Assembly (NCBI GenBank): GCA_001789045.1
Contig: MFYG01000002.1
Span: forward strand, 1-33,481
Direction: 5' to 3'
Length of the DNA stretch: 33,481 nucleotides
Origin: Candidatus Peribacteria bacterium RIFCSPLOWO2_12_FULL_55_15
GTDB lineage: Bacteria; Patescibacteriota; Gracilibacteria; Peribacterales; Peribacteraceae
Shown: piece by piece, positions 101-24,659 of the stretch
Position numbering within the stretch: the first letter of the stretch is position 1
Layout: each line of letters starts with the position of its first letter
The notes under the pieces: model-generated
Databases searched by the model: none
Told to the model about the DNA's origin: nothing
The model's input: only the letters and a program-made list of their open reading frames with translations
Program-made: the position numbers and the translations under genes

Positions 101-217
101 TGGTGGTGCCTGGGCGACAAAATTATAACCGATTTTCGGGAAAACTGGTGCGGCGGCTGAAAAATTCGGGGGTAGCAGCCGCCGTTGCCGTGACGATTTG
201 TAACTGCTCTTTTGCTG
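101..217. repeat. Left-end repeat, copy A
   Basis: It begins with TGGTGG and then ctgggcgacaaaattataac, nearly identical to copy B (21870-22052) and to the inverted copy C (about 1724-1869). An imperfect stem follows (ggtgcggcggctg with cagccgccgttgcc). The repeat then ends in a short inverted piece of the recombinase gene: read on the minus strand, 190-217 matches recombinase codons 34-42 (AAKEQLQIV). The first 70 bases equal the alternative 3' end of the recombinase gene. The SLH gene stop codon lies four bases beyond the repeat. Confidence 0.75.
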
Positions 218-220
218 CCG

Positions 221-1687
221 TCAACGTTCCGAGTATCGTTGATTTGCAGGATCGTAATGCCAATAAGAGTACCGAAGAGGAGTACGAGATTGAAGGATTC
301 GGATATCTGCATACCCATCATCATTCAAATCATTGATGAAGATAAAGTCTTTAAGCGACACTTGTCGCTTCTGAATCCTCGCGGCATTCTCTAGCATCAC
401 TGGAGAAAGACTGAATAAATCTATAGACGGAAAGAGAATTGTATCCCCCTGCTTTACTGTAAGAAAAGTAGGATTGAGGTCGTCGCCCCAGCTAATTCCT
501 CCATTTCCTTTGTCTCTGGACGGTGGATGTATATAAAAATCGAAATATCCATTATGTGTCGTATCATTTGCATATTGTCTCCATTCAAGCCAGTTGTATT
601 CAGGATCGTCGAATTGAAGCGTGACCGCGTCCGGTTCAACGTATGCGGTCCCCATCACTGCCCTATGTTTTTGGATTCCTGCCTTAAGCGGAAAAATATA
701 GCGAGAAATGTTTAAGTTCACCGTTCCAGATGAGCCAGGAATAAAACGTTCGTGCAATTCTTCAATACTGTTATCGAGGCAAATTTCCTCTAAGGCTTCA
801 TTGCCTCTTTCTCGCGGCATAAAATTGCTCATGTCGCTGGCAATTTCAAAAACCAGAACGGGGCAATCTGGCTGGGTAGTAGCTTGTTCTTTATAATTGC
901 CATGCACACCTTGTACATCCTCACTTTCTGCGCCAACAAAAACGACACTATCACTTGTAATAGATTCGACCTTCATTAATTGTAAAACATCCCCCTTACG
1001 CAAGGTAGCTCTGTCAAAGAATTGGGTTTCTCTCCGACTCAAGAGCGAAGGATCATGAAAAATCTCTAGGGACTGACTCGGACTATTATAGTGTTCACCT
1101 TCAAGTCTGTAGAGAATTTCCGCCATTTCACCCCTCGTCAACTTATCGGTCAATCCCATGATAGTTTTCGGGATGGCATCGTATGCTTCGAGACGGGCAA
1201 CAGGACCATAGTACCACTCGCCACTTGGTCCGTGATCAATGGGCGAATTGATTCCCACATGACTTGCATGTTGGACAGTGATGATTTTTGAGGCTTCTAC
1301 AAAGGATATGGTATTGACTGGCTTGAAGGTGCCATCTGGATAACCATCTATTAATCCACTGCACCGAGCGGCATTCACGAAAGATGCGAACCAACTCAAA
1401 CGTGGTACATCCGGGAAGTCGGTGAATAAATCACAATTGGTGCCGGATTGGAAAGTGCCACTTTCGACCATGATTTTCACAAATTCCGCACGATTGATCG
1501 TCTGATCTGGTCGGAACATTCCATCGGGATACCCACTCACAATTCCTTCTGACTGAACATAGAGAATAGCATCGTAGTTGGGATGCGATCGTGGAACATC
1601 CGGGAATGCAGCCTCAGTTTTGCTTGGGAAAAATAGAACGCCGAGAAGGACAGTACTGCCGATTATCTTGTAGATAGCTTCGCGCAT
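221..1687 (-). CDS. Secreted S-layer homology (SLH) domain protein
   Basis: This 488-residue protein is predicted to be exported and attached to the cell envelope. A basic N-terminus and hydrophobic stretch (residues 5-22, possible cleavage after KTEA) are followed by three SLH repeats at about 27-78, 91-138 and 155-197. The repeats show the typical pattern F.DV...HW/Y, G.I.GYPDG.F.P and .NRAEF. The C-terminal half (215-488) is not recognised, but near its end has an acidic NDLNDDGYAD stretch like calcium-binding or FG-GAP-type repeats. The start ATG has a good Shine-Dalgarno (aaggaatgt-ATG). The gene is cargo of element 1. Its stop codon lies four bases from the left-end repeat, so the native C-terminus may have been trimmed by the element boundary. 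SLH domains normally bind pyruvylated wall polymers; that this one does so is assumed. Confidence 0.85.
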   Translation of the reverse strand: MREAIYKIIGSTVLLGVLFFPSKTEAAFPDVPRSHPNYDAILYVQSEGIVSGYPDGMFRPDQTINRAEFVKIMVESGTFQSGTNCDLFTDFPDVPRLSWFASFVNAARCSGLIDGYPDGTFKPVNTISFVEASKIITVQHASHVGINSPIDHGPSGEWYYGPVARLEAYDAIPKTIMGLTDKLTRGEMAEILYRLEGEHYNSPSQSLEIFHDPSLLSRRETQFFDRATLRKGDVLQLMKVESITSDSVVFVGAESEDVQGVHGNYKEQATTQPDCPVLVFEIASDMSNFMPRERGNEALEEICLDNSIEELHERFIPGSSGTVNLNISRYIFPLKAGIQKHRAVMGTAYVEPDAVTLQFDDPEYNWLEWRQYANDTTHNGYFDFYIHPPSRDKGNGGISWGDDLNPTFLTVKQGDTILFPSIDLFSLSPVMLENAARIQKRQVSLKDFIFINDLNDDGYADIRILQSRTPLRYSYWHYDPANQRYSER

Positions 1688-1719
1688 ACATTCCTTATGT
1701 TAGGGAAATTTTGCGGATG

Positions 1720-1947
1720 GCGCTAGCCCAGTTCAAGCCGTCTTGCTTTTCCAGTTTCGCGTGCTGTTCTGACGGAAACGGTCGTGGCGTGGCGGCTGCC
1801 CCCCAATTTTCAGCTGCCGCGCCAATGTTCGCGGAAATCGGTTATGATTTTGTCGCCCAGGGACCACCAATTGCGACGTTCGGGGGTGGCGCGCAAAACG
1901 CGCCACCCTATTTTGGCTTCGTATTGCACCGCATTCTCTTTCCATTC
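1720..1947 (-). repeat. Inverted mosaic repeat, copy C (unintegrated-type att junction)
   Basis: Read on the minus strand from 1947, it encodes the end of the recombinase (NAVQYEAKIGWRVLRATPE) through the core TGGTGG (complement of 1864-1869) and on to WWSLGDKIITDFREHWRGS then stop. This is the C-terminus expected before integration. A stem-loop follows (ggcgcggcagctg with cagccgccacgcc), then ccgtttccgt. Next comes a forward fragment of recombinase codons 48-53 (cagaacagcacgcgaaac) and a fragment like codons 448-456 (aagacggcttgaactgggct). The part at 1870-1940 is an inverted copy of 3358-3426, so inverted repeats flank the intact recombinase gene. Confidence 0.75.
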
Positions 1948-1974
1948 GCCAACGGCAAAACTTTTCTTTTCTGT

Positions 1975-1980
1975 TATGAT
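1975..1980 (+). promoter_or_regulatory. -10 box TATGAT of the recombinase gene
   Basis: TATGAT is followed by six bases (tctctc) and the ATG, so the transcript would start at or next to the start codon (leaderless). No clear -35 or Shine-Dalgarno is visible. It lies just outside the inverted mosaic repeat. Confidence 0.5.
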
Positions 1981-1986
1981 TCTCTC

Positions 1987-3456
1987 ATGGACAACCGCTA
2001 TGTCATCTACGTCCGAAAATCGAGTGAGCAGGAAGAGAGACAAGCGTTATCCATCGCTGCTCAATTTCGTGAACTCGAAGAGTACGCAGCAAAAGAGCAG
2101 TTACAAATCGTCGCCTCCTTCGAGGAGGCCAGAACAGCACGCGAAACCGGACGAACCGTATTCGGAGAAATGTTGGGATTGATTGTGAATGGTGAAGCAG
2201 ATGGGATTTTGTCTTGGCATCCAGATCGCCTTGCTCGTAATGCCGTGGACGGCGGCCAGATTATCCATCTTCTCGACTGCGGAAAACTGAAAGACCTACG
2301 CTTCCCGACCATGACCTTCGACAATAGTCCGAATGGGAAATTCATGCTGCAAATCGCTTTTGGGCAGTCGAAATACTACACAGATGCTTTGAGTGAGAAT
2401 GTGAAGCGGGGTATCCGACAGAAGCTCAAACGAGGCGAATGGTCATGGAAAGCGCCGACGGGCTATCTGAATAATCCTCATACGAGGAACATCGACATTG
2501 ATTCAGAGAAAGCGCCTATCATTCGAGAAGCGTTCAGGCTGTACGCCACCGGAGAGTACACGCTCGATGCGATCAAGGACTTTCTCGTAGGGAAGGATTT
2601 CCGCAGTCGATTGAACAACATCATGGGCAAGGCCTCCGTCCAGACGATGCTGAAAAATCCCATTCACTGCGGACTCATGCAGGTGAACGGTGAACTGCAT
2701 GAAGGTTCGTTCAAGCCACTCATCAGCAAAGAGCTGTTCGACACGTGCCAACTGGTTATGAAGAATCGAGGTAAAATGAAGCACAGGAGAAACCAAGATT
2801 TTCATTTCGTTGGCTGGCTCAAGTGTGCGGAGTGTGATTGCTCCATCACTTGCCAGAGGCAGAAAGGGCATCACTATTACCATTGCACAAAGAAGAAAGG
2901 TCCCTGCACAAGCAAGCACTACCTTCGTGAGGAAAAGATACTTGAGCAAGCCAGAAAGATTGTCGAACAGCTTTCCATGCCCGATGAATGGGCGGACAGC
3001 ATGCTGCGGGAACTCGACAAGCAAGAAGTCCAGAGCAAGTCAGACCATCGGGCAGCCGTTCAGCACGTGAAGAATGAGAAGCGAGAATTGGAGAAGAAGC
3101 TGGAAGACCTCCTCGACCTTCGACTCGATGGCACGATTACCAATGACGAATACATTGTGAAGAAGAACAAGCTCGTATCTGCGAAGGTCGATCTTGACCA
3201 GAAAATCGCCCGAGCTGAACGGAACCATTGTGAGTGGCTAGAACCGTGTCGGCAGATGATTAGGCGCAGCAAGGAAGCCAAAAGTCTGCTTCACACCAAA
3301 GACTTCAAAGAAATCCCAACATTTCTCAAGCAAGCCGGCTCGAACTGGGCTTTGAAAGAGGATGCGGTGCAATACGAAGCCAAAATAGGGTGGCGCGTTT
3401 TGCGCGCCACCCCCGAACGTCGCAATTGGTGGGCAATACTGGATTTGAACCAGTGA
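1987..3456 (+). CDS. Large serine recombinase (site-specific integrase)
   Basis: This 489-residue protein cuts and rejoins DNA at attachment sites through a serine-DNA intermediate. The resolvase domain (about 4-145) has the YVRKSS motif with Ser12 as the likely nucleophile and DRLAR at 80-84. The recombinase domain spans about 150-275. A zinc ribbon uses Cys280, Cys283, Cys300 and Cys307, and a coiled coil covers about 358-410. The start at 1987 is chosen because the resolvase fold begins there; the open frame upstream (from 1711) runs over the mosaic repeat. The last residues (AILDLNQ) are encoded by the antisense strand of tRNA-Val, because the gene crosses the att core at 3427-3432. The pre-integration C-terminus, seen in copy C, would be SLGDKIITDFREHWRGS. 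All key catalytic and zinc residues are present, so it may be active. Confidence 0.93.
   Translation: MDNRYVIYVRKSSEQEERQALSIAAQFRELEEYAAKEQLQIVASFEEARTARETGRTVFGEMLGLIVNGEADGILSWHPDRLARNAVDGGQIIHLLDCGKLKDLRFPTMTFDNSPNGKFMLQIAFGQSKYYTDALSENVKRGIRQKLKRGEWSWKAPTGYLNNPHTRNIDIDSEKAPIIREAFRLYATGEYTLDAIKDFLVGKDFRSRLNNIMGKASVQTMLKNPIHCGLMQVNGELHEGSFKPLISKELFDTCQLVMKNRGKMKHRRNQDFHFVGWLKCAECDCSITCQRQKGHHYYHCTKKKGPCTSKHYLREEKILEQARKIVEQLSMPDEWADSMLRELDKQEVQSKSDHRAAVQHVKNEKRELEKKLEDLLDLRLDGTITNDEYIVKKNKLVSAKVDLDQKIARAERNHCEWLEPCRQMIRRSKEAKSLLHTKDFKEIPTFLKQAGSNWALKEDAVQYEAKIGWRVLRATPERRNWWAILDLNQ
2113..2129 (+). repeat. Small hairpin at the breakpoint of the repeat copies
   Basis: gcctcc-ttcga-ggaggc forms a perfect six-pair hairpin inside recombinase codons 43-48. 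Copies A and B lose homology to the gene directly before it, and copy C regains homology directly after it. The hairpin is therefore exactly what is replaced in the rearranged copies. Confidence 0.5.
3291..3432 (+). repeat. Right-end repeat of element 1 (attL-like)
   Basis: This 3' end of the recombinase gene is almost identical to 24451-24588, which abuts tRNA-Ala. It holds a perfect ten-pair palindrome (gggtggcgcg ttttg cgcgccaccc, 3389-3413) and ends in TTGGTGG, which merges with the CCA end of tRNA-Val. The palindrome 14-20 bases from the core is a good candidate for a recombinase-binding arm. Confidence 0.7.
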
Positions 3457-3502
3457 CCTTTCGGATGTGAACCGAACGCTCTAACCGCTGAGCTAATTGC
3501 CC
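3427..3502 (-). tRNA. tRNA-Val (CAC)
   Basis: Full cloverleaf of 76 bases. Acceptor GGGCAAT pairs with ATTGCCC, D stem GCTC/GAGC, anticodon stem TTCGG/CCGAA with loop TTCACAT (anticodon CAC, codon GTG), and T stem ACTGG/CCAGT with TTCAAAT. The discriminator is A and CCA is encoded. The last 30 bases are also the antisense of the recombinase 3' end, so the element restores the tRNA end on integration. It lies 43 bases downstream of dcd on the same strand. Confidence 0.95.
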
Positions 3503-4185: not shown

Positions 4186-5211
4186 ATGATGGACGGCATG
4201 ACGGACAGGAAAGAAAATGAACGGCCAGAGGAAGCCAAGGACAACGAACCAGATTTGCGGGCGCTTTCCCGGCGACGGGTATCGCTCGTTGCGGAGTTTC
4301 AGACCTACATGCACATCACATTCGATGGGCTCTCCCTCGCCTCTCACGAAGAAACCGAGGCGCTCCGCACTCCCCTCCTCCAAATGGAACTCACGGAAGA
4401 GGACATCGGCGCATGGGAACATTTTCGCGCATTCCTCCCGAAACTCCTGAACGCAGCACAGGCGCTCCATGTCAAGATTGACGACCTCCTGCGGCAAGCT
4501 GCCGATGACCGCCTCCTGGATTCGAACGATATTGCTGCGTGGCATGCATTCTTCCGGAGTGCGAGCATCGATTTCCAGGGAAAGAAGAGGGGAGCAGAGG
4601 AACTCGCGAGAAACCTATCGCAAAAAATGCAAAATACGGACGAACATCCACCGAAGAAAAACCAGGAACACCAATCTGAGAAGAACATCCTAAAAAGAGA
4701 TCAGGACGTTGAACAGAGACCTCAGGAGACAAGAGCGCAGGAAAAGAATGAAAAAAACACTCCACAAGAAACCCTTGAGAAGAGAGAGGAATACACCCCA
4801 CAAAAGGAGCCACTCTCGCTCCTTCGGAACACACAAACACGTACACGGTGGCTCCTCACGCTCCTCCCCTCCCAAATTTCCCCCCTCTATACGGCCGCTG
4901 CCAAACGCGGATCCACCGCTTTGCATGCAGTACAGAAAACACTGGAACAGAGCCTAGTACGGCAAAATTTTGGCTTCTTACACAGGAAAGACACGATCAT
5001 CCTCACAGCGGAGAAACTCCGGAACACCGAAGAATCCCTTGCAACATGCCAAGCCTCTGCCGCACAGAATGAAGAGGCCAAAACAGTCATTCTGGAACCT
5101 ATCTCACTCGCCTCCCAATCTGTCGTCGTGCATGGCATTCATCAAACCCTCCTGGAAAACATAAAGACCCTGGAAAAATACGGAATGCAAGGCGTACAAT
5201 GCTTGCTATGA
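4186..5211 (+). CDS. Hypothetical protein with charged central linker
   Basis: No family is recognised. The protein has about 341 residues. The first 130 look helical and folded, a very polar stretch (about 140-215, rich in Lys, Glu and Gln) looks like a linker or coiled coil, and the last 120 residues are again helix-like. There is no signal peptide and no clear membrane segment, so it is probably cytoplasmic. The start is uncertain: ATG at 4186 or 4198, with only a weak GAGAAG upstream; a TTG at 4162 is less likely. The stop TGA overlaps the ATG at 5208 (CTATGA), so it is translationally coupled to the DM13-like lipoprotein gene, which suggests a shared role. Confidence 0.7.
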   Translation: MMDGMTDRKENERPEEAKDNEPDLRALSRRRVSLVAEFQTYMHITFDGLSLASHEETEALRTPLLQMELTEEDIGAWEHFRAFLPKLLNAAQALHVKIDDLLRQAADDRLLDSNDIAAWHAFFRSASIDFQGKKRGAEELARNLSQKMQNTDEHPPKKNQEHQSEKNILKRDQDVEQRPQETRAQEKNEKNTPQETLEKREEYTPQKEPLSLLRNTQTRTRWLLTLLPSQISPLYTAAAKRGSTALHAVQKTLEQSLVRQNFGFLHRKDTIILTAEKLRNTEESLATCQASAAQNEEAKTVILEPISLASQSVVVHGIHQTLLENIKTLEKYGMQGVQCLL

Positions 5212-6445: not shown

Positions 6446-6478
6446 CTCCCTTCCCCTCTCCCGCGGGGAGAGGGAATC
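6446..6478. repeat. REP-like palindrome (CCTCTCCC/GGGAGAGG)
   Basis: cctctccc-gcg-gggagagg is a perfect stem, in the gap between the dsbA-like gene and dnaX. Related copies lie at 16751, 17688, 24681 and 26103. It is directly upstream of the dnaX -10 box, so it may insulate the two divergent genes. Confidence 0.65.
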
Positions 6479-21340: not shown

Positions 21341-21358
21341 ACTTTTCTTTCTCGCATC

Positions 21359-21595
21359 ATGCCCACTTCCAAGCAACGTCTCAACCTCACACTCCCCAAA
21401 CATCTTGCAGTCTTTTTGAAGAAAATATCGCTACGGGACGATGTCCCCCAGGCAACGAAGGCTGTGCAACTCTTGGAACGCGCGTTGGAATGGGAAGAAG
21501 GTGAGTTCAAACAGAGTTTCATCGACGAAATGAAGCGCCGAACGAAGCAGGACAAACTGATCTCCGCGAAGAGAGTCCTGAAGGATCTATGGTGA
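21359..21595 (+). CDS. Antitoxin, RelB/RHH-like
   Basis: A 78-residue protein. The N-terminus (MPTSKQRLNLTLPKHLAVFLKKISLRDDVP) has the strand-helix pattern of ribbon-helix-helix antitoxins, followed by a long charged helix typical of the toxin-binding tail (ALEWEEGEFKQSFIDEMKRR). It overlaps the toxin gene by seven bases (ATGGTGA), as type II modules do. It should neutralise the toxin and repress the shared promoter. The family is inferred from shape and from its partner rather than from a strict motif. Confidence 0.8.
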   Translation: MPTSKQRLNLTLPKHLAVFLKKISLRDDVPQATKAVQLLERALEWEEGEFKQSFIDEMKRRTKQDKLISAKRVLKDLW

Positions 21596-21849
21596 AGATG
21601 GCCTTCCGCTCCTCTGCTAAGCGCGATCTTGCCAGAATTGCGCGCCCTCTTCGGCGAACGATCCTCGCTGCATGCCGTGATGTATTTGACGATTGGGCCA
21701 TCGGCAAACCGTTGAGAGGCCCGCTTTCCGGTTATCGCATGCATCGAGCCGGCGTCTATCGCATTCTCTACGCGGTTCGTGAAAGTGCCTCCATCGAGAT
21801 CGTCGCAATCGGGCACAGGAAAGATATATACGAACGGGTGACGAAATAG
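21589..21849 (+). CDS. RelE/ParE-family toxin
   Basis: An 86-residue protein of the RelE/ParE superfamily: FRSSAKRDLARI near the start, then PLRGPLSGYRMHRAGVYRILYAV and IEIVAIGHRKDIYERV, the standard end of RelE-type mRNA interferases. The basic and aromatic residues expected in the active site (Arg of YRMHR, Arg of YRILY, His of GHRKDIY) are present. It could cut ribosome-bound mRNA or, if ParE-like, poison gyrase; the GHRKDIY ending favours RelE. It ends 21 bases before the left boundary of element 2, so it is next to the element rather than inside it. Confidence 0.88.
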   Translation: MVKMAFRSSAKRDLARIARPLRRTILAACRDVFDDWAIGKPLRGPLSGYRMHRAGVYRILYAVRESASIEIVAIGHRKDIYERVTK

Positions 21850-21869: not shown

Positions 21870-22052
21870 TGGTGGTGTCTGGGCGACAAAATTATAACCG
21901 ATTTCCGCGAACATTGGCGCGGCGGCTGATTTTGCTTCGCACCCCCCACAGCCGCCGCGCCGCCGAAACGCTGCTGCCGTTTCCGTGACGATTTGTAACT
22001 GCTCTTTTGCTGCGTACTCTTCGAGTTCACGAAGTTGCGCGGCGATAGACAT
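21870..22052. repeat. Left-end repeat, copy B
   Basis: It begins with TGGTGG and continues as in copies A and C. A perfect thirteen-pair stem follows (ggcgcggcggctg/cagccgccgcgcc with a 20-base loop), then ccgtttccgt. The rest, read on the minus strand from 22052, matches recombinase codons 21-42 (SIAAQLRELEEYAAKEQLQIV). This is the longest of the inverted 5' fragments. The first 70 bases encode the alternative recombinase C-terminus. Confidence 0.78.
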
Positions 22053-22186
22053 TCTTTGTTCTTATTGCGGCGAGGGAATATCGCGGCAGTTCGTGAGGCA
22101 GCTCAATGTAAGCAGGATCTCACACCCCACCCAGAACCGCCGAGAAACCCTTTTCAGGCATCGAAGAATCTGCCCCCTTACGTCGC

Positions 22187-22792
22187 TCAACAGCCGAACT
22201 CCCCTTCGATGCAGGGGGAGATGGTATCGGAGAGTTTCGGCGAACCTGGCTCAGGCCCCTTGGCGATGTACTCCTCCGCTTTCGTTGCGCTCCACTCGTG
22301 CTCGTGGTTCCAGAGCGTCCAGAAGTGCCGCCACTCGTTCCATCCGATGCCCAGGTGCTTCACGTACACGCCGTGCTCCGCGAGCATCTTGCCGATCTTC
22401 CTCCCCGTCATGCAGGGCATGGAGTAGCAGTAGACGATCACGTCCTTCTCCTTCGGCAACGCGCGGAATGCGCCGACGATGCGATCCACATCGCCGTAGG
22501 CAGAGGTATCGGGATCGGCGTAGGCGGGGATGCTCACTGCGCCGACGATGTGCTCTTTGTCGTATTCCTGCCGGCTGCGGAGATCGACGAGGAGGTAATC
22601 CGAACTGCCTCTGTCCATTTTTCCCCGTATGCTGTGCGGACTCACATGCACGGCGTTCTCGATGTTGTAAAAATCCGCGATGAGGGAAGAGGGGTCATGG
22701 GAGCGCCAGCGCAGGACGCCGAGTGCGGCGGCGGTTCCGCCCAATGTTCCGAGGAGGAGGGAGAGGAGGAGAAAGGAGAAGGACTTTTTCAT
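22187..22792 (-). CDS. Membrane-anchored rhodanese-domain protein
   Basis: A 201-residue protein with an N-terminal membrane anchor (about 5-28) and a rhodanese domain on the outer side. Domain marks are LLVDLRSRQEYDKEHIVGAVSIP and VIVYCYSMPCMTGRKIGKML, where Cys122 is the expected sulfur-carrying cysteine; the usual C..G.RS loop reads CYSMPCMTGRK. A second cysteine (Cys127) in the loop could form a disulfide. A Shine-Dalgarno-like GGATGG lies five bases before the ATG. It is cargo of element 2 and follows the unknown gene by nine bases on the same strand. The C-terminal 45 residues have no recognised role. Confidence 0.88.
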   Translation of the reverse strand: MKKSFSFLLLSLLLGTLGGTAAALGVLRWRSHDPSSLIADFYNIENAVHVSPHSIRGKMDRGSSDYLLVDLRSRQEYDKEHIVGAVSIPAYADPDTSAYGDVDRIVGAFRALPKEKDVIVYCYSMPCMTGRKIGKMLAEHGVYVKHLGIGWNEWRHFWTLWNHEHEWSATKAEEYIAKGPEPGSPKLSDTISPCIEGEFGC

Positions 22793-22801
22793 AATTCCAT
22801 C

Positions 22802-23401
22802 CTAAGCGTCGTCCTTCGTAAAATCAACGTCGGGTATCTTCCACGGCGGGGACGGGGCTTTGGAGGGATTCTTCCACTTCGTTCCGTAGATGTGGAATTC
22901 GCTCCGCTCGCAGAAGGCGAGCGAACCGGGCGGCGGCTCCTCCGCTTCCTCGTCGATTTCCGCATCCGGCGGAGCGAGCACCACCGTGGATTCCGCGTCG
23001 TCTTCTGCGACAATGTCCACGGAGAGGACGGAGGAGAGGTTGCGCGGCGACTCCGGCTCTTTGATGTCCTGCGGAACGCGCTCCGCCGGAATGCCATTCG
23101 CATTGAGTGTGGAAACCAGGAGGTTGCGCAGGCCGCGGTAGAGACATGCCGCGCCCATTCCCCACGGCGTCGCGCGCGACTGGAGGAAGATTGTTCCCGG
23201 GAGCTTGCGGAGCGTGACGAGGCGGATGTGCCTGCCGACCGGCATGGCGGGGAGGGTCGCGCGGAGGTGGTCCAGCGTTTTCTCGATGATGCGGCGGACC
23301 TCAGAATCAATGATCTCGACTGATTCACTGCACATCCGGATCGGCTCAACGTCGATCACGAGCGGGTCGGGAGTCTCGTTCAGCCACTGCTCAAGATCCA
23401 T
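22802..23401 (-). CDS. Hypothetical protein of element 2
   Basis: About 199 residues, family not recognised. The first 115 residues look folded (MDLEQWLNETPDPLVIDVEPIRM, then IIEKTLDHLRATLPAMPVG and MGAACLYRGLRNLLV). The C-terminal part is acidic and proline-rich. There is no signal peptide. The start ATG at 23401 is chosen because a TATACT box lies seven bases upstream, a spacing seen at other starts here. The gene reads directly into the rhodanese gene, so they probably form one transcript. The other strand also has a long open frame, but it lacks any recognisable motif. Confidence 0.65.
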   Translation of the reverse strand: MDLEQWLNETPDPLVIDVEPIRMCSESVEIIDSEVRRIIEKTLDHLRATLPAMPVGRHIRLVTLRKLPGTIFLQSRATPWGMGAACLYRGLRNLLVSTLNANGIPAERVPQDIKEPESPRNLSSVLSVDIVAEDDAESTVVLAPPDAEIDEEAEEPPPGSLAFCERSEFHIYGTKWKNPSKAPSPPWKIPDVDFTKDDA

Positions 23402-23428
23402 GGGAAGGAGTATAGCACCATGGCGAAA

Positions 23429-23490
23429 CACTCCTCTCCCTTCCAGCCTTCGCCAAGGCTACTGCCGGCAAGCAAGGGGTGAGGGCAGCT
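23429..23490. repeat. Degenerate REP-like sequence at the sigma-fragment 3' end
   Basis: ctcctctcccttccagccttcgccaaggct...ggggtgagggcagc keeps the cctctccc start and the ggggtgaggg tail of the REP-like family, with an altered middle. It marks the point where sigma-factor homology stops. Confidence 0.45.
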
Positions 23491-23899
23491 GCAGCTTTAG
23501 AGAAATTCCGCCAGGCGCGGCATGTCCGTTGGGCGTTTGGATGAGGTCGGAGACCGTCACGGCTTCGTCGCCTTTTCCTTCGAGCGGTGTGTCTATGCTC
23601 AACGTGGGACGGGATGCAGCAGCCGCCGCGGCAAGCGCCCACCGGCCCTCGCCGGAGATTTTCTCCAGGAGACTTATGGGCGGTTCTTCTCCATGGGTCG
23701 CGATGTATTCCTGTTCTGCGAAGGACGCTCTCTGCGCCTTGCCGCGGACATGCACGGGGACGCGCACGGTGGTGCCGGTGTCGGCAAGCGCGCGGGTGAA
23801 CGACTGGCGGATCAACCATGTGGCGTAGGTGCTGAATTTCCATCCGAAGCGCGGCTCGAATTTCTGCACGGCGCGCAGGAGCAGCTCTTCCAAGCAGTG
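23459..23899 (-). pseudogene. Truncated sigma-70 family factor (regions 2.3-3 only)
   Basis: The minus strand encodes [35 protein letters not shown] and [15 protein letters not shown], the classic region 2.3-2.4 of a sigma-70 factor that melts and reads the -10 box. Part of region 3 follows ([22 protein letters not shown]) up to [21 protein letters not shown]. Regions 1 and 2.1-2.2 are missing where the transposase remnant begins (about 23900), and region 4 is missing where a REP-like sequence begins (about 23430-23485). Both ends are lost, so it is best read as a pseudogene, although about 140 codons remain open. Confidence 0.8.
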
Positions 23900-24190
23900 A
23901 ACACGTTCCTGGAGGAGAGAGGTCTACTCGTGAAGAAAGGCACACTGGAAGACGCCACCGTTATTGAAACGGCGAAGAGCAGGAAGAACAAGAAGAAGAA
24001 GTCTCGTGTGCGTTCCTTCGTCGAGCACCCCTACAACATCATCAAGAACCGGTTCCACGTGATGAAGACCCGGTACATCGGACTCACGAAGAACACCGCC
24101 TACTTCCTCGGACTCTGCATGCTCTCCAACGTGTACATCGCACGCAGACATCTCCTCCCAAGGGGATGCCATGCCTTAACACCGGGAAAT
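23900..24190 (+). pseudogene. IS5-type transposase remnant with internal deletion
   Basis: The plus strand encodes [23 protein letters not shown], resembling the GL.VK.GT.VDATII stretch of IS5-family DDE transposases. After a short lysine-rich joint it jumps straight to FVEHPYNIIKNRFHVMK, RYIGLTKNTAYFLGL and SNVYIARRHLL, the C-terminal part with the last catalytic glutamate (VEHP). The N-terminus and the middle, including the second catalytic aspartate, are gone. It seems to have interrupted the sigma-factor gene and then decayed. Confidence 0.8.
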
Positions 24191-24290
24191 CCGGTCCCAC
24201 ACGTACTACCCCGCAGAAAATTGCCACCACTGGCAAGGAGAAAAAGAGCCAGGGAACCACTACAGAAGCCTAGAAGAGGGATTTTTCAGC

Positions 24291-24591
24291 GATTCCCAAT
24301 GACGAATACATCGGAAAAAAGAACAAACTCGTTTCTCAGAAGGTCGATCTTGACCAGAAAATCGCCCGTGCTGAACGGAACCACTGTGAGTGGCTAGAAC
24401 CGTGTCGGCAAATGATTTTACGCAGCAAGGAAGCCAAAAGTCTGCTTCACACAGAAAATCTCAAGGAAATCCCAACATTTCTTAAGCAAGCCGGCTTGAA
24501 CTGGGCTTTGAAAGAGAATGCGGTGCAATACGAAGCCAAAATAGGGTGGCGCGTTTTGCGCGCCAGCCCCGAAAGTCGTACTTGGTGGAGC
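24291..24591 (+). pseudogene. 3' remnant of a serine recombinase gene
   Basis: This matches codons 384 to the end of the recombinase at 1987-3456 at both DNA and protein level (NDEYIGKKNKLVSQKVDLDQ, ERNHCEWLEPCRQMI, SKEAKSLLHTENLKEIPTFLKQAG). It has the same palindrome and the same TTGGTGG end. It crosses the core into tRNA-Ala and stops at once (WWS-TGA, stop at 24592-24594). Everything upstream, including the catalytic domain and zinc ribbon, is missing. The copy differs from that of element 1 by scattered substitutions, so it is not an assembly duplicate. Confidence 0.9.
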
Positions 24592-24659
24592 TGACGAGAT
24601 TCGAACTCGTGACCCCCTGCTTGCAAAGCAGGTGCTCTAGCCAGCTGAGCTACAGCCCC
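24583..24659 (-). tRNA. tRNA-Ala (TGC)
   Basis: Full cloverleaf of 77 bases. Acceptor GGGGCTG pairs with CAGCTCC, anticodon stem CCTGC/GCAGG with loop TTTGCAA (anticodon TGC), and T loop TTCGAAT in ACGAG/CTCGT. Discriminator A and encoded CCA. The terminal CCACCA is the proposed attachment core of element 2. Confidence 0.96.

Follow-up and report, generated by a model that had tools for sequence, protein, structure and literature searches.

A tRNA-Val island with a large serine recombinase in a Candidatus Peribacteria genome, and related elements at many tRNA genes

Contig MFYG01000002.1 of Candidatus Peribacteria bacterium RIFCSPLOWO2_12_FULL_55_15 (assembly GCA_001789045.1) was analyzed over its full length of 33,481 nucleotides, hereafter the window, to which positions refer unless another contig or locus is named; it belongs to an 896-kb genome in 24 contigs. 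Positions 101-3432 of the window are an integrated element at the 3' end of a tRNA-Val(CAC) gene; from left to right it consists of attL, a cargo gene for an SLH protein, an inverted attP in the interior, a complete large serine recombinase and attR. The hexamer TGGTGG is found at 101-106 and again at 3427-3432. The second copy corresponds, in antisense, to the six terminal bases at the tRNA 3' end. An initial annotation made from the letters alone had proposed that this hexamer bounds a 3.3-kb segment holding a full serine recombinase and a secreted SLH protein. Both proposals hold: a hexamer by itself is weak evidence, but each copy terminates a long repeat, termed LE (left) and RE (right), and the protein domains are confirmed. 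The features of the element are as follows.

101..106, plus strand: attL core TGGTGG, where host flank 1-100 joins the element, read from the sequence
101..171, plus strand: outer LE repeat (P' arm), with an inverted copy at 1799-1869 and a direct copy at 21870-21929
192-218: antisense scrap of the recombinase N-terminus, within LE-related sequence that extends to 218
221..1687, minus strand: cargo gene for a secreted SLH-domain protein of 488 aa (PF00395, E=1.9e-24)
1725..1771, minus strand: scraps of recombinase N- and C-terminal coding sequence beside the inner LE, as inverted repeats
1799..1869, minus strand: inner LE repeat, inverted relative to 101-171 (85% ungapped)
1864..1869, minus strand: core of the internal, inverted full attP (RE-TGGTGG-LE), an exact LE/RE overlap
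1864..1942, minus strand: inner RE repeat, an inverted copy of 3354-3432 (99% over 79 nt)
1987..3456, plus strand: large serine recombinase (PF00239, PF07508, PF13408), a frame without its own stop that ends inside the antisense tRNA-Val
3354..3432, plus strand: outer RE repeat (P arm), 79 nt, with the hairpin GGGTGGCGCGTTTTGCGCGCCACCC; it also codes for the recombinase C-terminus
3427..3432, plus strand: attR core TGGTGG, the antisense of CCACCA (tRNA positions 71-73 plus CCA)
3427..3502, minus strand: target tRNA-Val(CAC), intact (ARAGORN)

The plan of the element reads [flank-LE> SLH <LE] = attP = [<RE recombinase RE>]-tRNA-Val. The internal attP has its core where the inner LE and inner RE overlap, and is read as RE-TGGTGG-LE on the minus strand; this site (1864-1869) and the other occupied tRNAs of the genome were not part of the initial annotation.

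The recombinase is complete, with the Resolvase (PF00239), Recombinase (PF07508) and zinc-ribbon (PF13408) domains all scoring above the Pfam cut-offs. Active-site residues R10, S12, Q26, D80, R81 and R84 are invariant across 11 relatives from its clade, as are the zinc-ribbon cysteines 280, 283, 300 and 307. Judged by its domains, catalytic serine and zinc ribbon, the predicted protein is a large serine recombinase. The nearest named NCBIfam models are the Ccr recombinases and XisF, reached at 54-82 bits against cut-offs of 375-900. Membership in the staphylococcal cassette chromosome (SCC) group is rejected, with CcrA, CcrB and CcrC scores of 71, 69 and 54 bits against curated cut-offs of 700-900. 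Plasmid and phage collections contained no clade members, the best match there having 32% identity. This end of the frame recurs among relatives: no stop precedes the tRNA 3' end in 38 of 42 elements, and the frame ends inside the antisense tRNA in 29 and beyond the tRNA in the rest.

A profile built from the 11 relatives led to 80 named loci, mostly from the candidate phyla radiation (CPR), and at E<=1e-80 it has matches in 150 of the 380 genomes sampled from the phylum. Counting only named loci with at least 160 nt of downstream sequence, in 55 of 67 the recombinase match is faced by a tRNA whose 3' end lies no more than 150 nt away, where about one such locus is expected by chance (estimated from 0.127 tRNA/kb in the same loci). 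Further recombinases in other genome regions face a tRNA 3' end likewise (14 of 16), and several loci lie in single-contig genomes. About 16 tRNA isotypes are used by the clade. A tree of 42 recombinases requires at least 22 changes of isotype, and none of 200 shuffles gave so few (mean 29.2).

The architecture seen in the window is shared as well. Of 63 loci tested, 58 have a near-perfect inverted RE copy on the upstream side of the recombinase, with an attP junction as in the window, and an inverted P' arm (LE) copy lies farther out in 32 of the 41 loci with room for it. All 42 complete elements follow one plan, [X-LE> cargo <LE]=attP=[<RE recombinase RE>]-tRNA, with 0.7-9.1 kb between the outer LE and attP. 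Median identity within pairs is 99.3% for LE and 99.0% for RE, with 18 perfect pairs of each kind. Clade recombinases diverge down to ∼42% identity to that of the window, and the near-identity of the repeat pairs across such divergence indicates that the repeats are homogenized or re-made. Assembly artefacts are ruled out as the source of the inverted repeats, which are present in the single-contig genomes G062, G188 and G217; a chance hexamer is also ruled out, every copy ending a 60-79 nt repeat that is seen at other tRNAs.

More distant serine recombinases of the relatives serve as a control. Twelve of these 21 (26-33% identity) face a tRNA 3' end within 1 kb (L032, L035, L039, L041, L042, L044-L048, L050 and L051), and the other nine, including one on contig C12 of the window genome, have no tRNA within 1 kb. 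The twelve tRNA-facing ones show no RE inverted repeat above shuffles; the four-arm plan of two LE and two RE copies therefore appears specific to the clade. Targeting of tRNAs by serine recombinases thus extends beyond the clade, and across CPR it may be wider still. On C12, this third serine recombinase of the genome (L020, 5223-6626), of another clade (35% identity), lies beside type I restriction-methylase genes with no tRNA nearby.

Comparison of related genomes points to the mobile unit. In genome G235, a comF-like gene (LALAH-stop) is followed by a few bases, attL TGGCGG, 6.1 kb of cargo, attP, the recombinase and attR TGGCGG in tRNA-Ser(GCT). In the congener G512 (G502 is identical), a single base separates the comF stop from the TGGCGG of tRNA-Ser(GCT), an exact empty site. 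At the sequence level, this pair is direct evidence for precise insertion or loss of cargo and recombinase as one unit. At the tRNA-Val orthologous to that of the window, beside dcd, G003 carries an element of the same plan with four unrelated cargo genes, and the tRNA-Val near dcd is unoccupied in G005, G014, G010 and G011; joined empty sites were not found in the genera of G011 and G188. The empty-site comparison proposed in the initial annotation is thus answered in a relative, while bases 1-100 of the window joined directly to tRNA-Val were not found with a left flank of only 100 bases, and the unoccupied tRNA-Val genes do not have this flank beside them.

The near-perfect inverted repeats around the recombinase could also be taken for the ends of an insertion sequence (IS)-like transposon, in which the recombinase and its 79-nt terminal inverted repeats (1864-3432) are the mobile unit and the cargo is unrelated DNA. 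Yet the LE pair brackets the cargo equally precisely in 42 elements, the outer LE is where attL is found, and in G512 cargo and recombinase are both missing from the empty site, which refutes the transposon as the main unit. Serine recombinases are not known to act on terminal inverted repeats in the manner of a transposase. We consider the transposon explanation very unlikely.

The junctions resolve the target to the base. The attP, attL and attR sites have the common core TGG-N73'-N72'N71'. In many elements attL has no TGG, and the part it shares can be as short as the last 3 nt (L108: TTTCGG vs TGGCGG), and among 42 elements compared the last 3 nt of the attL, attP and attR cores are shared in the clean cases. 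As only these last three attL bases are common, the crossover would fall at tRNA positions 71-73; where attL is without TGG, the encoded CCA adjacent to the tRNA would come from the element in those genomes. The attP core follows the target: TGGCGG for Ser; TGGTGC for Leu, Arg and Phe; TGGCTG for Gln; TGGTGG for Val, Tyr, Lys and Ala; TGGCAG for Glu and Trp; TGGCTC for Asn; TGGGGT for His; and TGGTCG for Pro, with the exception of one Glu element with the core TGGTGA. The set of 49 elements behind these comparisons was picked by identity of attP core and tRNA core, and what is informative in it is that the core tracks the isotype, not the count.

Beyond the core, the LE consensus contains GTtCGAAC, and in the tRNA half stands GGAtTCGAACC, which is T-arm sequence read antisense. 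When the LE profile is slid along the tRNA profile, similarity peaks once, with LE and tRNA offset by exactly 5 bp (0.100, against 0.040 for the next-best position; column permutation p=0.005). In 38 of the 49 elements the CGAAC of LE begins at +19 (chance ∼0.0009 per element), and (C/T)GAAC is found at +14 in 49/49 tRNAs; the shift is seen on the P'/B' side. In the LI integrase, the zinc-ribbon (ZD) motif occupies positions 16-24 of the attP half-site (Rutherford et al., PMC3783163), and in the modeled attB it lies 5 bp closer to the center than in attP (PMC3783163). Counted from the dinucleotide, the LE and tRNA motifs match these ZD positions. The simplest reading is that the zinc ribbon would read the tRNA T-arm (TTCGAACC, antisense) in attB. 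An LE that carries the T-arm motif 5 bp farther from the crossover would explain how one clade uses many tRNAs. The initial annotation had attributed insertion at several tRNAs to the short core; the family does use many tRNAs, but the core is only part of the target code, and the shared T-arm motif would explain this breadth better.

The same junction data bear on a passive link to tRNA genes, in which islands gather beside tRNAs by homologous recombination and the recombinase is a resolvase or a passenger. The many relics at tRNAs and an element on contig C1 that adjoins an older RE copy at tRNA-Glu are compatible with it, whereas base-exact junctions in tRNA positions 71-73, attP cores that track targets and a 5-bp-offset T-arm motif in LE are not, and we give this explanation almost no credence. 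The window element is instead, with high probability, a mobile island that its own large serine recombinase placed at the tRNA-Val 3' end.

The search for the right-end repeat at the tRNA 3' ends of this genome, recommended in the initial annotation, was productive: RE recurs at 24510-24588 (tRNA-Ala TGC), C13:429-507 (tRNA-Ile GAT) and C11:10125-10203 (tRNA-Ala CGC). LE recurs at 21870-21929 and C21:1757-1808. Besides Val and Ala(TGC), the occupied tRNAs of the genome are Ile, Ala(CGC), Glu(CTC), Glu(TTC), Pro(CGG) and Ser(CGA). The segment at tRNA-Ala suggested earlier to have the same ends does have them (LE 21870-21929, RE 24510-24588) and is a second, decayed element.

21870..21929, plus strand: attL and LE of the second, decayed element of the same family (repeat match)
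24286..24579, plus strand: C-terminal remnant of its recombinase (87% identity to residues 382-479)
24510..24588, plus strand: RE and attR of the second element (95% to the RE repeat)
24583..24659, minus strand: its target tRNA-Ala(TGC) (ARAGORN)

The second element has lost its inner LE and attP; its interior (21930-24290) contains a rhodanese-like gene, a truncated sigma-70-like frame and transposase-like scraps. Immediately left of its attL lies a ParD/ParE-like toxin-antitoxin pair (21345-21849). Palindromes of the form CCTCTCCC(N)GGGAGAGGG are dispersed between genes at 6449, 16784, 24678 and 26113 of the window, all outside the tRNA-Val element. On contig C1, at 4298-4540 of locus L019 (C1:6000-20000), the older RE copy terminates exactly at the attL of the current tRNA-Glu element, which suggests serial insertion at one tRNA-Glu.

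The cargo is variable. Within the window genome it comprises the SLH protein at tRNA-Val and an MvaI/BcnI-type restriction enzyme with a DNA methylase at tRNA-Glu (C1). Elsewhere it includes type IIG, III and I restriction-modification, HEAT-methylase, OLD/AAA nuclease, PDC-S18 and AbiP2 reverse transcriptase (E=6e-178), as well as SLH/Lcl_C and fibronectin-like surface proteins and small secreted proteins. Defense genes predominate in the related elements, often as multi-gene restriction or defense operons. The SLH cargo protein of the window has wide relatives for its SLH part only, and SLH genes are common in these genomes (eight matches in the window genome; matches in 58 of 59 genomes searched). 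The earlier emphasis on the movement of a surface-layer protein is therefore not supported, and mobility specific to SLH genes is rejected: with SLH genes ubiquitous and cargo variable, the SLH cargo is incidental. Relaxase or conjugation genes were not recognized among the cargo proteins scanned, and the origin of transfer (oriT) was not searched for.

Two cargo regions stand out. A Nomurabacteria element (L147:3411-4913) carries an AbiP2-type defense reverse transcriptase beside type I restriction genes. A sister element at tRNA-Val (L072:3250-6945) encodes a 666-aa protein that is GHKL-ATPase-like by eye, with partners that match nothing in Pfam and, in two cases, nothing in PADLOC either; this cargo is a candidate new defense system.

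Inverted att sites around both modules, homogenized repeats and the existence of flipped recombinases (L162, C11) are features that an invertible switch would also have, the cargo or the recombinase being flipped by recombination between inverted sites, with varying expression of surface protein or defense. However, the orientation of the recombinase to the tRNA is strongly biased: its 3' end lies at the tRNA nearly always, and the flipped cases are only L162 (at a contig end, with the inverted RE seen), the C11 remnant and possibly L133. The cargo is often a multi-gene operon with no switch-like promoter evident, attP x attP is not normally recombined by serine integrases, and the empty site corresponds to gain or loss of the whole unit. 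A role mainly as a switch is thus improbable, if less so than the transposon or the passive link.

For the mobile island, the architecture, the target, the empty site in a relative and the 5-bp offset are observed; catalysis, a circle, excision, a zinc-ribbon contact and a role for the second attP are inferred. The recombinase would join attP (RE-TGG.N.NN-LE) to attB (downstream flank - tRNA 3' end). With a crossover within tRNA positions 71-73, the tRNA would stay intact and the element would provide the CCA on the new junction. The zinc-ribbon domain would recognize the T-arm in attB, and LE would act as the attP half-site with the same motif 5 bp farther out. Because LE and RE are each present twice and inverted, an excised circle would hold two near-identical inverted attP sites flanking the cargo. 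Integration through either attP would place the cargo outside and the recombinase beside the tRNA, and a crossover between the inverted sites would invert, never delete, a module. On balance, we favor the view that a CPR-frequent clade has made the T-arm its attB half-site and may thereby insert at many, perhaps nearly all, tRNAs with only a 3-nt core retuned; its circles, with two homogenized inverted attP sites isolating the cargo from the recombinase module, would be an undescribed four-arm design.

Several observations weigh against the mobile-island explanation. On the P/B side, CCA is all that the left halves of attB, in the downstream flank, have in common, so that this half has to be bound non-specifically. 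No recombination directionality factor was identified. The rarity of flipped recombinases is unexpected if both attP sites worked equally; the bias may arise because a recombinase in the flipped orientation would be transcribed from the promoter of the tRNA. In the window itself, the T-arm motif of LE is degraded (ATCATAACC), and the LE pair (71/79 matched, 4 gap positions) is less perfect than in most elements; together they indicate that the window copy may be ageing.

According to Islander, targeting of tRNA genes is not known among integrases of the serine family (PMC4383910), and the nearest described case is the ssrA islands of Dehalococcoides with the serine recombinase DsiB (PMC3146451). 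Like the present family, these are serine-recombinase islands with variable cargo at the 3' end of a tRNA-like gene (tmRNA), and their integrase frame runs into the RNA gene, ssrA, without its own stop (PMC3146451). Unlike it, they use the single-copy target ssrA, insert in the T-loop (here positions 71-73), have 20-bp direct repeats, and combine a CcrB-like integrase with a second small recombinase (DsiA/DsiB) in a six-gene module; inverted LE/RE pairs and an internal attP are present here and not described for them (PMC3146451). A DsiB-type ssrA island is ruled out, as the targets here are tRNAs, the recombinase is single and the LE/RE pairs are inverted.

Phage large serine integrases (A118/LI, Bxb1, phiC31) share the domain order, active site, zinc ribbon, short att sites and 5-bp ZD-motif offset of attP versus attB (PMC3783163), but use a single attB site or a few, as a rule within protein genes or between genes, and one attP, in contrast to tRNA T-arms and two inverted attP. 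Tyrosine-integrase tRNA islands (Islander, PMC4383910; tycheposons) are alike in inserting small cargo islands at a tRNA 3' end with the tRNA kept functional; they differ in an unrelated recombinase and a longer restored tRNA fragment, whereas here ∼3-6 nt including CCA are exchanged. Tn4451-type integrative and mobilizable elements with serine recombinases are likewise small with very short direct repeats, but the described ones lie in or disrupt protein genes and carry mobilization genes (PMC5704250). SCCmec-type cassettes (CcrA/CcrB/CcrC) differ in targeting rlmH. A literature search, with most subscription papers and preprints outside its reach, returned no description of the family or of paired inverted attP. 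Site-specific serine-integrase islands are known; the target logic and architecture are provisionally new.

The family thus represents serine integrases with a tRNA-gene habit, contrary to the Islander statement (PMC4383910). Through its 5-bp offset it lends itself as a natural test of how serine integrases obtain their directionality under the ZD-offset model, and its members are candidate integrases for tRNA sites common to most bacteria. As many as eight tRNA genes are marked in a single 0.9-Mb genome, and the cargo is rich in restriction and other anti-phage genes; these elements offer a concrete route for the turnover of defense and surface genes in ultra-small CPR genomes.

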